This document shows, one piece after another, positions 3,738 through 15,179 of a DNA stretch of 39,218 nucleotides. Each line of letters opens with the position of its first letter. Position 1 is the first letter of the stretch. This DNA is from Burkholderiales bacterium (lineage in GTDB: Bacteria; Pseudomonadota; Gammaproteobacteria; Burkholderiales; Thiobacteraceae), in contig JAUXTZ010000099.1 of NCBI GenBank assembly GCA_030681095.1, forward strand, positions 1 to 39,218. The letters run 5' to 3'. The position numbers and the translations under genes were made by a program. The notes below the pieces were generated by a model. It saw only the letters and a list, made by a program, of their open reading frames with translations. It was not told the DNA's origin and did no database searches.

Positions 3738-4237
3738 ACAAGCGGAAAAAGTCTCCAGGGCAGGCGGAAATGTCGTTTTTCGAAGTTCCTGCCACACCGC
3801 GATCTGACGCCGGAAGCTTGGATGTAGCCCAAGCGGTGCGTGATGGTTTAACCGATACGCTAGCTACAGCGAAAGCTGAAGGATGCGACCGCTACGATAT
3901 AGCTGCAAGTATTAGCCGCCTTTCTGGTCGCGATATGTCGAAAGACATGCTGGATCGCTACACCGCTTCATCATCGGATGGACATCGTTTCCCCTTAGAA
4001 GCACTACCCGCGCTCGTACAAGCAACCGGCGATTTTCGCTTGCTTGAGTTGATCGCCCAAAAGTGCGGATGCAAGATATTGCGCGGCGAAGAGGCGGTGC
4101 TAGCCGAAATCGGCGCGCTCATGCTGCAAGATCGCACTACCAAAGCCCGCCTCGACCATATCAAAAAAGCGGTACCAAACAGCGTCATGGATCGTCTAGT
4201 CGCTGAAGTGCTGGAAAGAATGGGCAACGGGAGATGA
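3734..4237 (+). CDS. Early phage protein, CII-like/regulatory family (tentative)
   Basis: SISRLSGRDMSKDMLDRYTASSSDGHRFPLEALPALVQATGDFRLLELIAQKCGCKIL pattern; overlaps neighbouring genes by 4 nt. Confidence 0.6.
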   Translation: MNKRKKSPGQAEMSFFEVPATPRSDAGSLDVAQAVRDGLTDTLATAKAEGCDRYDIAASISRLSGRDMSKDMLDRYTASSSDGHRFPLEALPALVQATGDFRLLELIAQKCGCKILRGEEAVLAEIGALMLQDRTTKARLDHIKKAVPNSVMDRLVAEVLERMGNGR

Positions 4238-6279
4238 CCATTCGCGAGCGCTTAACCATTCAGCAGCTTGCCGTCGCCCTGACGGTAACGAGACAAGCCG
4301 CAAGCAAGCGTGCAAACCAGGAAAGCTGGTTGTTCAGTGAAGAAACAGGGCGGGGCGGCCGGAAGCGCCTGTACGAAACCAAAAGCCTGCCTGCAGAAAT
4401 ACGCGAAGCGATCATGCACCACGCCTTGCGCGAATCATCCCTCCCTGTGCCAGTCCCATCGCTTCCGACGGTGAGCGAAAAGCCCACACCGACACCAGCC
4501 AACCTAAAAGACTGGCAACGCTCGGCAGCCGAAGCCCGCGCAGCCCTAGTCGCCGAAGTGAAGCGCCTGGCCGAGCACGGCGGCACCGAGCGCGCCATCA
4601 TGGCCTTGGTCAACATGGCCGCAAAGAGCGGCCTACCAGAACACCTGCAGCAGATCGTGCCCATCGCCAACGCCCGATCCGGCAAAGACGGAAAACGCAC
4701 ACTATCACGCCGCAGCCTCTATCGATGGCTGAATGATGCCGAGCAAGGCTTCACCGCGCTGGCCCCAAAAAACCGGGAAAAAGTAGCTGTCCCCGCTTGG
4801 GCTCAAACACTGCTCCGGCTGCGCAACGTCCCGCAGGGCGTCAACCTTACTTGGGTGATGGAGCAGCTCCCCGCGCAATTACCCGCCGGCACTCCGGCCC
4901 CCTCATACAGCCAAGCCCGCCGCTTCATCGACAAAATGTCCGCCGTCGATCGCGAGGCGGGTCGCATGGGGCCGCGCGAGATCAAATCCATCCGCGCCTA
5001 CGTCAAACGCGACAGCTCCGGCATGTGGCCCACCGAAGCCTACACCGCCGATGGTCACGCCTTCGATGCCGAAATCGCCCACCCTGCACACGGCAAACCC
5101 TTCCGGCCCGAGCTTACTACCGTGCTCGATATCGCCACCCGCAAAGCGGTTGGCTGGTCGGCCGGGCTGGCCGAATCCACCTGGGCCGTGCTCGATGCCT
5201 TGCGCCATGCGTGTTTCGTCGGCGGCATCCCAGCCATCTTCTATGTCGACAACGGTTCCGGCTATAAAAACGACCTGATGGCCAACGAGGCCACCGGCTT
5301 CATGGGGCGGCTCGCCATCACCATGAGCAACAGCTTGCCCTACAACTCGCAAGCGCGCGGCGTGATCGAGCGATCGCATCAAACCATCTGGATCAAAGCC
5401 GCCAAAACCTTGCCCACCTACATGGGCGCGGACATGGATCGCGAGGCCAAGCAAAAGGTATTCAAGATCACCCGCGCCGACATCAAAGCAGTGGGCAGCT
5501 CGCGGCTGCTCATGCCCTGGGCTGAGTTCGTCGCCTGGTGCCAAGTGCAGATCGACGCCTATAACAGGCGCCCGCATCGCGCCCTTCCCAAAATGCGCGA
5601 TACCGAAACCGGCAAGCTGCGCCACCAAAGCCCGAACGAAGCCTGGCAAGCAGCGATCAATGAAGGTTGGCAGCCTGTGCCGGTAGAGGCGCACGAGGCC
5701 GACGATCTATTCCGGCCCTACAAAGAATGCGTCACCCGCCGCGCGATGGTGCAGCTCTTCAGCAACAGCTATTTCCACCGAGACCTAGAACACCACCACG
5801 GTGAAACCGTGCGTGTCGGCTACGACATCCACGACGCCAGCCGCGCCTGGGTGCGTGACAACCAAGGCCGCCTGATCTGTGTGGCCGAGTTCGAAGGCAA
5901 TAAGCGTAGCTACTTCCCCGAAAGCTTCATTGAACAAGCCGCGCAAAAGCGCGCCACAGGCCGCATCAAGCGCGCCCAGGTGCGCATCGACGAAGCCGAG
6001 GCCGAGCTTGATCCGCCTCGGCAAATCGAGCACATGCCAGCGGAAACGCTGCCGGTGATGGATTTTGCCCACGCAATCGAAGGCGCAAACGTAGTGCGCC
6101 TACCCGAGCCGCTGCCAGAACGCCCCATGTTCGACACCGACGCAGGCAAATACCGCTGGCTCACACGCAACCCAGAAACCATCGCGGCTGAAGACGACGG
6201 CTGGATGGCTTGGTACCGCACCACCAGCGAGTGGGAAGACTTGTTTGGAGAAGATTTCGAGGAGGCGGCCGGCAGGTAG
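4234..6279 (+). CDS. MuA-type DDE transposase
   Basis: 681 aa; N-terminal Mu-type HTH (RLTIQQLAVALTVTRQAASKRA), catalytic core YTADGHAFDAEI ... FYVDNGSGYKN ... GVIERSHQTIW (DDE), C-terminal Mu domain. Confidence 0.97.
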   Translation: MTIRERLTIQQLAVALTVTRQAASKRANQESWLFSEETGRGGRKRLYETKSLPAEIREAIMHHALRESSLPVPVPSLPTVSEKPTPTPANLKDWQRSAAEARAALVAEVKRLAEHGGTERAIMALVNMAAKSGLPEHLQQIVPIANARSGKDGKRTLSRRSLYRWLNDAEQGFTALAPKNREKVAVPAWAQTLLRLRNVPQGVNLTWVMEQLPAQLPAGTPAPSYSQARRFIDKMSAVDREAGRMGPREIKSIRAYVKRDSSGMWPTEAYTADGHAFDAEIAHPAHGKPFRPELTTVLDIATRKAVGWSAGLAESTWAVLDALRHACFVGGIPAIFYVDNGSGYKNDLMANEATGFMGRLAITMSNSLPYNSQARGVIERSHQTIWIKAAKTLPTYMGADMDREAKQKVFKITRADIKAVGSSRLLMPWAEFVAWCQVQIDAYNRRPHRALPKMRDTETGKLRHQSPNEAWQAAINEGWQPVPVEAHEADDLFRPYKECVTRRAMVQLFSNSYFHRDLEHHHGETVRVGYDIHDASRAWVRDNQGRLICVAEFEGNKRSYFPESFIEQAAQKRATGRIKRAQVRIDEAEAELDPPRQIEHMPAETLPVMDFAHAIEGANVVRLPEPLPERPMFDTDAGKYRWLTRNPETIAAEDDGWMAWYRTTSEWEDLFGEDFEEAAGR

Positions 6280-6334: not shown

Positions 6335-7090
6335 GTGAAAAAGACTTTCGTCAAAAGTGTCACGAACTACGAACGATTCCGCACCGGTATCTCAGCAGTT
6401 GAAACACGCGGCGCAGCCGAGGCCAGCATGCTGCTGGTCACCGGCGAAGCGGGCTACGGTAAAAGCCAGACGGTGGATCACTGGGCGGTGCAAAACGGCG
6501 CGGCCTACCTGCGCGCCAAGGTCGAGTGGACGCCGCACTACTTCATGACCGAGCTGGCGGAAACGCTCAAGCTCGATACACGCGGCCGCGCCAAGGATCT
6601 CTTCGGTCGCATCGCAGGCGTCATCGGCGGCCAGCAAATACCGCTCGTGATCGACGAAGCCGAACACTGCCTCATCAATGGCGCAAAGGTGCTGGAAGCC
6701 GTGCGCGATCTCTCCGATCTCACCGAGGTGATGGTGATTTTAGTGGGCATGGAACAAGTGCAGGCCAAGATCGCACGCTACGCGCAGATATCCAGCCGCA
6801 TCGCCAAGGTAGTGACCTTCCAGCCCGCCACGGCTGAGGATGTGGCGGAATTCTGCAAACACCTGGCCGAAGTCGAAATGTGCCCTGATCTAGTAGGCGA
6901 AATCCACCGCCAAAGCGCTGGCCGCGCGCGCGAAATCCTCAACGCCATCGCCACCGTCGAGCGCACCGCCAAGCGCAACGGCACGGCCAAAGCAACGCTG
7001 GCCGACATGGCGGGCCAAGTACTCACCCACGACTGGCAAGCTCGGCGTCCGCGCGTAATCAAGCCTGCTGTTGCGACGGGAGGGCGGTGA
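6335..7090 (+). CDS. MuB-type AAA ATPase (transposition target protein)
   Basis: Walker A TGEAGYGKSQT, Walker B IPLVIDEAEH; directly after MuA. GTG start. Confidence 0.95.
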   Translation: MKKTFVKSVTNYERFRTGISAVETRGAAEASMLLVTGEAGYGKSQTVDHWAVQNGAAYLRAKVEWTPHYFMTELAETLKLDTRGRAKDLFGRIAGVIGGQQIPLVIDEAEHCLINGAKVLEAVRDLSDLTEVMVILVGMEQVQAKIARYAQISSRIAKVVTFQPATAEDVAEFCKHLAEVEMCPDLVGEIHRQSAGRAREILNAIATVERTAKRNGTAKATLADMAGQVLTHDWQARRPRVIKPAVATGGR

Positions 7091-11910: not shown

Positions 11911-12390
11911 ATGGAGAAGGAAATGACAGACAAACTTTGGACAATATTCGCACGCTGGCTGGTGGGCCACCCGCGCCGGGTTGATTGGATCATCCGCCGC
12001 GCCAAGCGCAAGCCCTATGTGCATCTCACAAACTACATGGGCCGGTGGTGGCTCATACAGCCATCGCGCTTCTTGCCGTTCAGTATTCGCGTGCACCACA
12101 TCCTGCGCGCAGACAATGACCGCACACCGCACAACCACCCGTGGGCATTCCGCACCATCGTCTTGCGCGGTTGGTACGTCGAGGAACTAGGGTTTTCATT
12201 CGGCACGAGCACCCTTGTGGCGGGTGCCGGTGAGACTTATGCGAGAACGACAGATCAATACCATCGCATCGCACACGTACCACGCGGCGGCGTCTGGACG
12301 CTATTCATCATGGGCAAGAAGCGCGGGCAGTGGGGCTTCCTGGTCGATGGCCAGCACGTTAATCGGCGGGATTACCGCCAGAACGTTTAA
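11911..12390 (+). CDS. Cupin-like phage protein
   Basis: RADNDRTPHNHPWAFRTIVLRGWYVEE ... YHRIAHVPRGGVWTLFIMGKKRGQWGFLVDGQHV, cupin-type His-rich strand pattern. Confidence 0.7.
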   Translation: MEKEMTDKLWTIFARWLVGHPRRVDWIIRRAKRKPYVHLTNYMGRWWLIQPSRFLPFSIRVHHILRADNDRTPHNHPWAFRTIVLRGWYVEELGFSFGTSTLVAGAGETYARTTDQYHRIAHVPRGGVWTLFIMGKKRGQWGFLVDGQHVNRRDYRQNV

Positions 12391-12402
12391 CGCGAGACAG
12401 CC

Positions 12403-12834
12403 ATGCCAATCAGCAAAGAACAGTGGGTCGAGATTGAGTACCAGCTTTCCAGCATTCCCGGCCGCGTGGAGCTGCGTTGCGATGGCCATGCTGTCGTAGC
12501 AGAAATCGCAGGCGTGGGTACGCTCAAGCAAGGTATCGCCGTCTATATCGACGGCTCCATCAAGGGCATATGGCTGAAAGGCGAAGATGAGATCGCGCGC
12601 AAATTTCACCGCGAGTCGAAGCGCTTTGCGCGCTCGATGAAGACGCGCGAGCTTTATAAAAAGACCGCCGCAAATCGACGCCTACCGAAAGACGTTCGCG
12701 AGGAATACGCGCGTCGCGCTGCTCAAACCTATTCGATTTGGTACCCCTGGTGGACGAATGTAAAAGCGTTTCGCCGCCACATCAGCAAGACGTGTAAAGA
12801 GATTGATATCGTGAAGATTGGCTACGGGGGGTGA
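12403..12834 (+). CDS. Hypothetical phage protein
   Basis: 143 aa ORF, MPISKEQWVEIEYQLSSIPGRVELRCDGHAV; adjacent to cupin and Rieske ORFs. Confidence 0.6.
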   Translation: MPISKEQWVEIEYQLSSIPGRVELRCDGHAVVAEIAGVGTLKQGIAVYIDGSIKGIWLKGEDEIARKFHRESKRFARSMKTRELYKKTAANRRLPKDVREEYARRAAQTYSIWYPWWTNVKAFRRHISKTCKEIDIVKIGYGG

Positions 12835-12837
12835 TGC

Positions 12838-13350
12838 ATGAGTGATCGCAATCCCTACATCGTCGGAAAATTCTATGACGTGCCGACCGTGCATGGCTTG
12901 ATCTACGGCGTGCGGATGGATTGGCCGGTAATCGGCCCAATGCACGAGGATGCCGAAATTATCAATTTCCCTTGGCAGCATTACCACATCGACTGGAGGT
13001 TTGTTCCTTTACGGATATGCCGCAGCGTGGCCGTGAAATGGCACTCCTATGGGCTGGCCGGTGTGTACGCCATAGTGCTTCACGCACGACCGGAAGTTCA
13101 CCCAAATGGGCTGCCAGCACCAGTCATGAAGCGGATGAAATGCAAGATGGAGTTCCCGGTGTTCCCAGAGCACGTAGTTCGATGGCTCCATGAGCTACGC
13201 GAAAAATTCGCCGGATGCAAACTAAAACCCGGAATGGTGTGTCCGCATCGCGGTGTCCCGCTGGCCAGCTTGCCGAGCGTGGATGGCATCGTCACATGCC
13301 CCGCGCATGGACTGAAATGGAATGTAAAAACGGGAGAGATGGTGCTATGA
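12838..13350 (+). CDS. Phage protein with C-terminal Rieske-type [2Fe-2S] motif
   Basis: CPHRGVPLASLPSVDGIVTCPAHGLKWNVKTGEMV contains C-X-H ... C-X2-H with the CPHRG and CPxHG boxes. Confidence 0.82.
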   Translation: MSDRNPYIVGKFYDVPTVHGLIYGVRMDWPVIGPMHEDAEIINFPWQHYHIDWRFVPLRICRSVAVKWHSYGLAGVYAIVLHARPEVHPNGLPAPVMKRMKCKMEFPVFPEHVVRWLHELREKFAGCKLKPGMVCPHRGVPLASLPSVDGIVTCPAHGLKWNVKTGEMVL

Positions 13351-13751
13351 CCACCGCCCCCGACATCCGCAAACGCGAGCTGGCGCAGATCCACATCGCC
13401 AAGGCCCAGCTCGGCATGGACGATGAAACCTACCGCGCCATGCTGTGGACGATCGCGCGCGTGAAGTCAGCGGCGGATCTCGATTGGGCTGGCCGCAAGC
13501 GCGTGCTCGATCACTTCAAAGCCAGTGGCGCCAAGCTCGGCGGTCTGCGGGCCCCACGCGCCGCCCCAGACCGCGCGGGACTGGTAGGCAAGATTGGCGC
13601 GCAGCTCACCGACATGAGCCTGCCCTGGGCCTACGCCCACGGCATGGCAAAGCACATGTTCAAGTTGGAGAAGGTCGAATGGTGCAGCCCCGAACAGTTG
13701 CGCAAGATCGTGGCAGCGCTCGCCTACAAGCAAAAGAAGGGGGCGGCATGA
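13347..13751 (+). CDS. gemA: GemA/gp16 family (DUF1018) protein
   Basis: RKRELAQIHIAKAQLGMDDETYRAMLWTIARVKSAADLDWAGRKRVLDHFKASGAKL ... LSPEQLRKIV-like C-terminus. Confidence 0.93.
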   Translation: MTTAPDIRKRELAQIHIAKAQLGMDDETYRAMLWTIARVKSAADLDWAGRKRVLDHFKASGAKLGGLRAPRAAPDRAGLVGKIGAQLTDMSLPWAYAHGMAKHMFKLEKVEWCSPEQLRKIVAALAYKQKKGAA

Positions 13752-13966
13752 GCGAAGGGCTGTGTTTTGTATTGGGTGCCGGATTTGGCGCGTGGTTAGC
13801 TTGGCATTTCTGGCTCGACCGTGCCCAACCGAAGGTCGAGCTAAAGATCGACCCCGCCGTGCTCAGCCAGATCAACAGCCTCGTGGTGACCGCGTGGCTG
13901 GAACAGCGCGGCCTGGTGTGGATGCCCAAGGGCGTCGATTTTAAAGCGACGGTTAAAAAATCATGA
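13748..13966 (+). CDS. Small phage membrane protein (hypothetical)
   Basis: MSEGLCFVLGAGFGAWLAWHFWLDRA N-terminal hydrophobic segment; 4-nt overlaps. Confidence 0.6.
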   Translation: MSEGLCFVLGAGFGAWLAWHFWLDRAQPKVELKIDPAVLSQINSLVVTAWLEQRGLVWMPKGVDFKATVKKS

Positions 13967-14316
13967 ACGAAGCCGAACTCGCCTCAGGCTACCCGGAGCT
14001 GCTCGCGGACCTCGCCGACCAGATCGCGTGCAAGCTGCTCGAATTCGGCATCGAACCCGAGCGCGCGGCCGAGGCTGGTTTCGCGGCGGCGGAACACATC
14101 CGCGCCAACTGGTCGGGGCAGAGCCTGTATGTGCCCAAGGGCGTGGAGTACGAGCTATCCAAGCGCGACATGGTGATCTTCGAGCGCTGCAACGGGCGCA
14201 ATCATGAGGTGCTGGCCCGCGAGTACAATCTCACGGTTATGCGCATTTACCAGATCATCAAGGCCGTCAAGGCCGAGTTGTTACGGAAGCGCCAGGGGGC
14301 GCTGTTTGAAACTTAA
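13963..14316 (+). CDS. Mor/C-family transcriptional activator
   Basis: YPELLADLADQIACKLLEFGI...YVPKGVEYELSKRDMVIFERCNGRNHEVLAREYNLTVMRIYQIIKAVKAE. Confidence 0.93.
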   Translation: MNEAELASGYPELLADLADQIACKLLEFGIEPERAAEAGFAAAEHIRANWSGQSLYVPKGVEYELSKRDMVIFERCNGRNHEVLAREYNLTVMRIYQIIKAVKAELLRKRQGALFET

Positions 14317-14331
14317 CCAGGGGAGGAAGTC

Positions 14332-14889
14332 ATGAAGGCATTCAGAATCGTTGTTATCGTTATCGTTGTTTCGTTCATTGGGCTTTTTGTGTGGGCTAAA
14401 TACGATAACTGGAAGAACCGTTCGCATGCAGCGGAGGTGGCTGCGACGCAGCACTTACCCATTAAGCAAAAGACACTAAATTTGGATTGGTTCGAATTAC
14501 GTCAGCAGTGGAACGCGGTTGTTGGGGAAGTGGTTCGTATTGAATCATTCAAGGAACCGGCAAAAGGCGGCTATACCGTCGATTTCGGAAACAACCTGGC
14601 AATGCTCGCCGGGACTTCCGACAGTAAAGTTACAAACTTGCTGATTATCTATGGTGGTGGCGATGGCCTTGGGGCGATCAAACTCTTTGGTGCAATGCTT
14701 GGGGCAATCGCCGTCACTAATCCAAGCCTATCGCCAACAGAGCGCGGGGCGATTTTGAAACGAATGAAGCTTGCGGGTGATGATGAGGACTATTCAAAAG
14801 GTAAGAGTGAATCCGTCACCGAAAATGGCATCGAGTATGCAGTCGTAATTAAAGACTTCGGCCTTCTTTTTTCCGCGACACCGAAATGA
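14332..14889 (+). CDS. Membrane-anchored hypothetical protein
   Basis: N-terminal hydrophobic anchor AFRIVVIVIVVSFIGLFVW; GGGGAGGAAG RBS; lower-GC look than neighbours. Confidence 0.65.
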   Translation: MKAFRIVVIVIVVSFIGLFVWAKYDNWKNRSHAAEVAATQHLPIKQKTLNLDWFELRQQWNAVVGEVVRIESFKEPAKGGYTVDFGNNLAMLAGTSDSKVTNLLIIYGGGDGLGAIKLFGAMLGAIAVTNPSLSPTERGAILKRMKLAGDDEDYSKGKSESVTENGIEYAVVIKDFGLLFSATPK

Positions 14890-15179
14890 CTCGAATAGTC
14901 ATCTCGATCCTGCTTTGCATAAGCGCATTTGGTGTCTCTGACGCCCGCGATGCGTCTGTGCGTAGGATATTCACACAGCAGAACCCATGCCCCGCCATCG
15001 GCGAGCCACGCGGCGCTTGCCCCGGCTGGGTGGTCGATCACATCGTCCCGCTGTGCGCGGGCGGCGCGGACACGACGGACAACATGCAGTGGCAGACCAA
15101 GGAAGAGGCGCTGGAGAAAGACAAGGAAGAGTGGCGGCTATGCCGGGAGTTACGAAAACAACGGGCTAGCGAGTATTAA
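14886..15179 (+). CDS. HNH-motif protein with predicted signal peptide
   Basis: MTRIVISILLCISAFGVSDA (signal-like) then VDHIVPLCAGGADTTDNMQWQTKEEALEKDKEE (HNH-type core). Confidence 0.78.
   Translation: MTRIVISILLCISAFGVSDARDASVRRIFTQQNPCPAIGEPRGACPGWVVDHIVPLCAGGADTTDNMQWQTKEEALEKDKEEWRLCRELRKQRASEY

Follow-up and report, generated by a model that had tools for sequence, protein, structure and literature searches.

Rieske iron-sulfur clusters, familiar from textbooks as cofactors in respiration and in oxygenases, have, to our knowledge, always been described on one base fold. Among described proteins, the Rieske ferredoxins, such as T4moC (1vm9) and the ferredoxin of 3-nitrotoluene dioxygenase (5bok), carry the same C-x-H...C-x2-H ligands as the protein reported here, and Foldseek superposes 37 of its residues at 1.4 A on these two and on a further Rieske ferredoxin, 3dqy; however, our protein is without their base beta domain and post-cluster segment and possesses an unrelated N-terminal domain instead. 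The alpha subunits of Rieske non-heme iron oxygenases (SxtT/GxtA, DdmC) provide the best profile matches in the PDB, in the cluster subdomain at E-values of 1e-6 to 1e-5, and likewise have a second His/Asp site. These subunits are 330-450 amino acids long with the Rieske part at the N-terminus, whereas our protein has about 170 amino acids and a C-terminal Rieske part. No sequence or fold match to their 2-His-1-carboxylate catalytic domain was found, its His/Asp motif and fold being different, and by its fold the protein does not belong to the Rieske oxygenases. Rieske ligands borne by a phage also occur in QTJ63004.1 of Stenotrophomonas phage TS-12 (L010 3860-4177, annotated as hypothetical), but this is a complete, ordinary-looking Rieske ferredoxin of 105 amino acids, without the N-terminal domain and motif, and falls outside the present family. 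The family itself corresponds to PHROG 10072 by full-length matches (E 3e-11 for our protein, 2e-11 for L017 and 1e-9 for L012). That entry assigns no function and makes no mention of a Rieske subdomain; the relatives reported here extend its known host range to spirochaetes, cyanobacteria and Bacteroidota. What is new is a probable iron-sulfur protein in which the cluster-binding half of a Rieske domain is joined to a previously unseen fold, across phages and plasmids of very different bacteria.

The window, that is, the whole stretch of DNA analysed, comprises 39218 nucleotides of a Burkholderiales bacterium, and the mini-Rieske gene, the neighbouring genes given below with coordinates and the MuA and MuB genes lie on its forward strand. 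The mini-Rieske gene (12838-13350, 170 amino acids) begins with ATG and is preceded by a ribosome-binding site, GGGGGG (12826-12831), beside the stop codon (12832-12834) of the upstream gene. Its own stop codon shares a 4-bp ATGA at 13347 with the start of gemA (13347-13751; Mu GemA, PF06252). The ribosome-binding site and this overlap make the gene a member of a tight phage operon, which runs in the order HU-like protein, phrog_4786 (11911-12390), phrog_5671 (12403-12834), mini-Rieske gene, gemA and a Mor-type late/middle transcription activator (phrog_532, 13963-14316). PHROG gives no function for phrog_5671, a look-alike of which, judged by eye, also lies ahead of the Rieske gene in L006, a Mu-like locus. 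The cupin-like product of phrog_4786 is labelled a phage 'cysteine dioxygenase'; encoded two genes 5' of the Rieske gene, it is another possible metal oxygenase of the operon. Compared with its counterpart in L006, the mini-Rieske gene has a dN of about 0.35 and a dS of about 1.9, the latter near saturation, and it evolves under purifying selection.

The initial annotation placed this gene inside a Mu-like prophage. The Mu-like character is real, as a MuA-type transposase (4234-6279) and a MuB-type transposition protein (6335-7090) are present together with GemA, Mor and Mu-type morphogenesis genes; the window also encodes a repressor, terminase, head protease, tail sheath, tape measure and baseplate. 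As to integration, the contig, one of 409 in the assembly, is the entire window, so that host flanks are out of view and the element may be either an integrated prophage or a binned phage contig. To the left of the repressor, a short ORF (1017-1517) resembles the C-terminal part (positions 296-407 of 458) of phrog_11787, a phage DNA methyltransferase family; it may be a remnant or a short gene in its own right.

The cluster-binding subdomain occupies residues 133-168 (13234-13341) and reads C135-x-H137-x16-C154-x2-H157, with the ligand codons at 13240-13242, 13246-13248, 13297-13299 and 13306-13308, respectively; the C-x-H and C-x2-H pairs are thus located as first annotated. Pfam PF00355 matches the protein at 26.6 bits, above its curated cut-off of 20.3, over residues 133-168 only and over positions 41-75 of its 88 only. 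The same profile is matched independently by 89 of 95 relatives at E <= 0.01, some of them below the cut-off (for example L213, 17.9 bits). Conservation of the ligands among homologues, on which the initial annotation had staked its assignment, was examined in 92 representatives with less than 60% identity, which were retrieved only through the N-terminal motif and not selected on Rieske ligands. C135, P136, H137, C154 and H157 are kept in all 92, while other positions drift (G139 in 52, G158 in 67 and C102 in 68), and the spacer between the ligand pairs ranges from 9 to 35 residues, most commonly 16-17. Because 89 of 95 relatives match on their own and the ligands are invariant without having been selected for, the PF00355 match is not due to chance. 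PDB searches with the single sequence and with the family profile retrieved Rieske proteins only, and only for this C-terminal stretch (profile positions of about 114-172), led by SxtT/GxtA at 1e-6 and followed by dicamba demethylase and the toluene-4-monooxygenase ferredoxin at 1e-5. C135, H137, C154 and H157 most likely hold a [2Fe-2S] cluster, as judged from homology. The base beta domain is not recognisable by the Pfam profile or by structure search, which aligns about 37 residues, and the chain terminates right behind the second ligand loop, without the proline loop that covers the cluster in other Rieske proteins. As the base domain was sought and not found, the protein falls short of full membership in the Rieske fold despite its Rieske-type ligands; the annotated identity therefore holds for the cluster-binding half but not for a complete domain.

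The N-terminal domain (residues 1-131, 12838-13230) bears out the earlier remark that the first 130 or so amino acids are not obviously an oxygenase subunit. No Pfam family was matched in this region in 21 family members scanned, and the domain used as a profile had no sequence match in the PDB. An AlphaFold2 model of the whole protein, built on an alignment from 29 relatives, has a pLDDT of 90.9 and a pTM of 0.85; Foldseek found nothing below E 0.5 over its whole length among 350542 PDB chains and no relative among the viral structures of BFVD. A second model, of a Leptospira-plasmid member only 28% identical to the window protein (95-row alignment; pLDDT 87.9, pTM 0.76), shares the order of elements, namely strand, long strand, strand, helix and then the Rieske loops, and also has no full-length Foldseek match in the PDB. 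Two independent confident models without a PDB match favour a new fold over a bad model, and the N-terminal domain apparently adopts such a fold, unrelated to the Rieske base fold.

This domain contains an equally invariant motif that the initial annotation missed, P30-x5-H36-x-D38-x9-H48-Y-H50-x-D52-x-R54-F55 (12925-13002), whose family form is P-x5-H-x-D-x8/9-H-x-H-x-D-x-R-F. P30, H36, D38, H48, H50, D52, R54 and F55 are kept in 31-32 of 32 relatives retrieved mainly through the C-terminal Rieske motif. In both models H36 and D38 lie at the end of one strand and H48, H50 and D52 on the next, and the alternation of residues in a beta-hairpin would place all five on the same side. These His and Asp residues probably form a second metal-binding or catalytic site. 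A DNA pattern representing only the N-terminal motif was used to scan IMG/VR; 133 of its 134 hits proved to be family members (118 distinct proteins), and in 128 of the 133 a C-x-H...C-x2-H follows in a test of fixed spacing. The five exceptions are two proteins with ligands at unusual spacing (L118 and L187), one cut at a contig end (L098) and two truncated copies (L182 and L205). Searches through either motif thus check each other and establish their coupling: the N-terminal and Rieske motifs always travel together.

Family genes sit in co-directional operons, with ATGA or GTGA at the stop codon in 65 of 120 copies, and their neighbourhood is of the early or replication type (methyltransferases, RusA, DnaB, primase, RecT). 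Clustering of the neighbours of first 30 and then 123 loci yielded only small, lineage-bound sets and no recurring reductase, oxygenase or other partner gene. DNA methyltransferases are the commonest recognisable adjacent genes (11 of 113 downstream and 7 of 115 upstream). Their supposed enrichment was rejected as support, since 18 of 228 adjacent genes against 4 of 114 control genes 3.5 kb away is not significant (Fisher p 0.16), which leaves no more than a hint of a nucleic-acid target. In L007, a conserved phage gene (6541-7017, RHYS...NPGFCFLMAGW) adjoins the Rieske gene; its relatives in Paenibacillus, Micromonospora and Salinibacter phages are all hypothetical, and a phage search gave no support for considering it Mom-like. 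On an Oscillatoria plasmid (L013), DISARM drmD and a DNA methyltransferase (11947-15096) lie downstream of the family member, at a distance of about 4 kb.

We give an even chance to the reading that this is a phage- and plasmid-specific protein of two parts, a [2Fe-2S] half and a new fold with a second metal or catalytic site, which carries out a redox reaction early in infection. Host ferredoxin or flavodoxin reductases would reduce the Rieske cluster; with no reductase or oxygenase gene recurring next to the family in 123 loci, the host would have to supply the electrons. Within this single small chain the cluster would then hand them on to the N-terminal site, and that site would perform a small redox reaction during early or middle infection, most plausibly on a nucleic acid, on a nucleotide, or on a target in host defence or metabolism. 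We infer the cluster, the second metal and the electron path of this mechanism alike. Counted against it are the loosely kept G139 and G158, the variable spacer, a C2H2 ligand set that could hold one zinc, the lack of a recurring partner gene for a reductase or oxygenase, and the weak link to DNA enzymes. The family would demonstrate that the cluster-binding half of a Rieske domain can be reused by itself, here on an unrelated fold and alongside another strictly conserved site, and would offer a candidate for a new redox enzyme acting in conflicts between phage and host or in the metabolism of phage DNA. A bolder form of this proposal, in which the family is a class of compact single-chain Rieske metalloenzymes with their own mononuclear metal site, oxidising a base, a nucleotide or a defence-related molecule for phages and plasmids, seems unlikely; if true, it would mean that a function like that of the Rieske oxygenases was invented independently of the known oxygenase fold.

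The main rival of the two-part redox protein is a structural metal site, in which the loops hold zinc or a single iron as a zinc-ribbon-like knuckle on a non-redox adaptor, for example a nucleic-acid-binding protein or an inhibitor of a host enzyme. We regard it as the lesser possibility, somewhat unlikely on balance. The glycines of the [2Fe-2S] turns are not strictly kept, the ligand spacing varies, and the protein lacks both the base fold of Rieske proteins and the proline loop that comes after the cluster, all as a structural site might have it. The Foldseek matches of the knuckle, moreover, include an RNA polymerase I subunit (7ob9_I, E 2.7), and those of the Leptospira model include Tudor/Hfq small barrels, a faint likeness that is not significant (E above 0.4). 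Such a knuckle is, however, difficult to reconcile with a profile that matches Rieske proteins only, and beyond the ligands alone, with PF00355 recognised in the great majority of members, and with an invariant CP-H and a mostly kept CP-x-H-G-L, a context that is Rieske-like. Nor would a simple adaptor need a second invariant His/Asp motif.

The initial annotation had suggested an electron carrier, a redox sensor or an accessory to DNA or metabolite modification as possible roles. Less likely than the structural site, and to our mind quite improbable, is a simple electron carrier that substitutes for a Rieske ferredoxin in feeding a host or phage oxygenase, with the N-terminal motif as its docking surface. 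The closest solved cluster subdomains do include the Rieske ferredoxins of toluene, nitrotoluene and biphenyl oxygenases, but no oxygenase or reductase gene recurs alongside, the remainder of the ferredoxin fold is missing, and a docking surface would hardly hold five His/Asp residues invariant in phages whose hosts are as different as spirochaetes, proteobacteria and Bacteroidota. That the protein is a redox or iron sensor, or a regulator tuning the phage transcription programme, is very improbable, for although labile Rieske clusters are known as sensors in principle and the gene lies in the window in a middle operon between the early genes and gemA/Mor-type activator, no DNA-binding domain is recognised, the gene position is not conserved outside Mu-like members, and the invariant polar motif looks catalytic.

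The two-part protein is not peculiar to a single prophage but belongs to a large phage and plasmid family, a point that the initial annotation missed. About 120 distinct relatives were found in IMG/VR, on plasmids and in one Hymenobacter genome. The plasmid carriers are Leptospira plasmids with phage genes, a Methylorubrum megaplasmid, the Oscillatoria plasmid and a 41-kb element of Rhizobium rhizoryzae (phage-plasmid L012) with terminase and capsid genes, and several IMG/VR isolate entries with family members come from Leptospira. The Leptospira plasmid and Rhizobium phage-plasmid copies offer cultured material for tests. Contig GC of the family loci spans 24 to 74%, indicating very diverse hosts. 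Of 399 genomes sampled in the host phylum, none besides the window's own had a match to the N-terminal profile. A search of 369 genomes of the class with the full profile gave 213 positives; nearly all of the matches listed covered the Rieske half only, and the positives were rejected as family carriers, the matches listed being essentially generic Rieske proteins. Given this absence from the genomes sampled in the phylum and these generic matches in the class, against the relatives in IMG/VR and on plasmids, the family looks restricted to mobile elements (phages and plasmids) within the data searched. A tblastn search of 50697 phage records with the window protein and several relatives returned no family member. 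Matches in an Acinetobacter 'phage' were rejected as relatives, being ordinary Rieske oxygenases; the records concerned (CAKLQH02 and CAKLQF02, Acinetobacter phage MD-2021a) hold several host-type Rieske oxygenase genes (kshA, antA, ndoA) and look like bacterial chromosome filed as phage. In the open-access literature, subscription papers and preprints being outside the scope, no paper was found that describes the family or pairs Rieske with phage genes in this way. The family is large, conserved, widespread and apparently undescribed.

The Leptospira members show signs of exchange and of decay. The L213 protein is 100% identical to a 'hypothetical protein' on plasmid p2 of L. interrogans, where it is found beside a cytosine methyltransferase, while on lcp3 the neighbour of the Rieske gene is RusA. 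Comparison of the two plasmids (p2, L221 4189-5764; lcp3, L220 4654-5857) shows the upstream gene swapped and the Rieske gene constant, a cassette-like exchange. Truncated copies are found at L182 8405-8746 and L205 2073-2303 and in the plasmid hits NZ_CP092659, NZ_CP092745 and NZ_CP092160; these keep the N-terminal motif, or the first 45 residues only, which suggests decay after loss of need.
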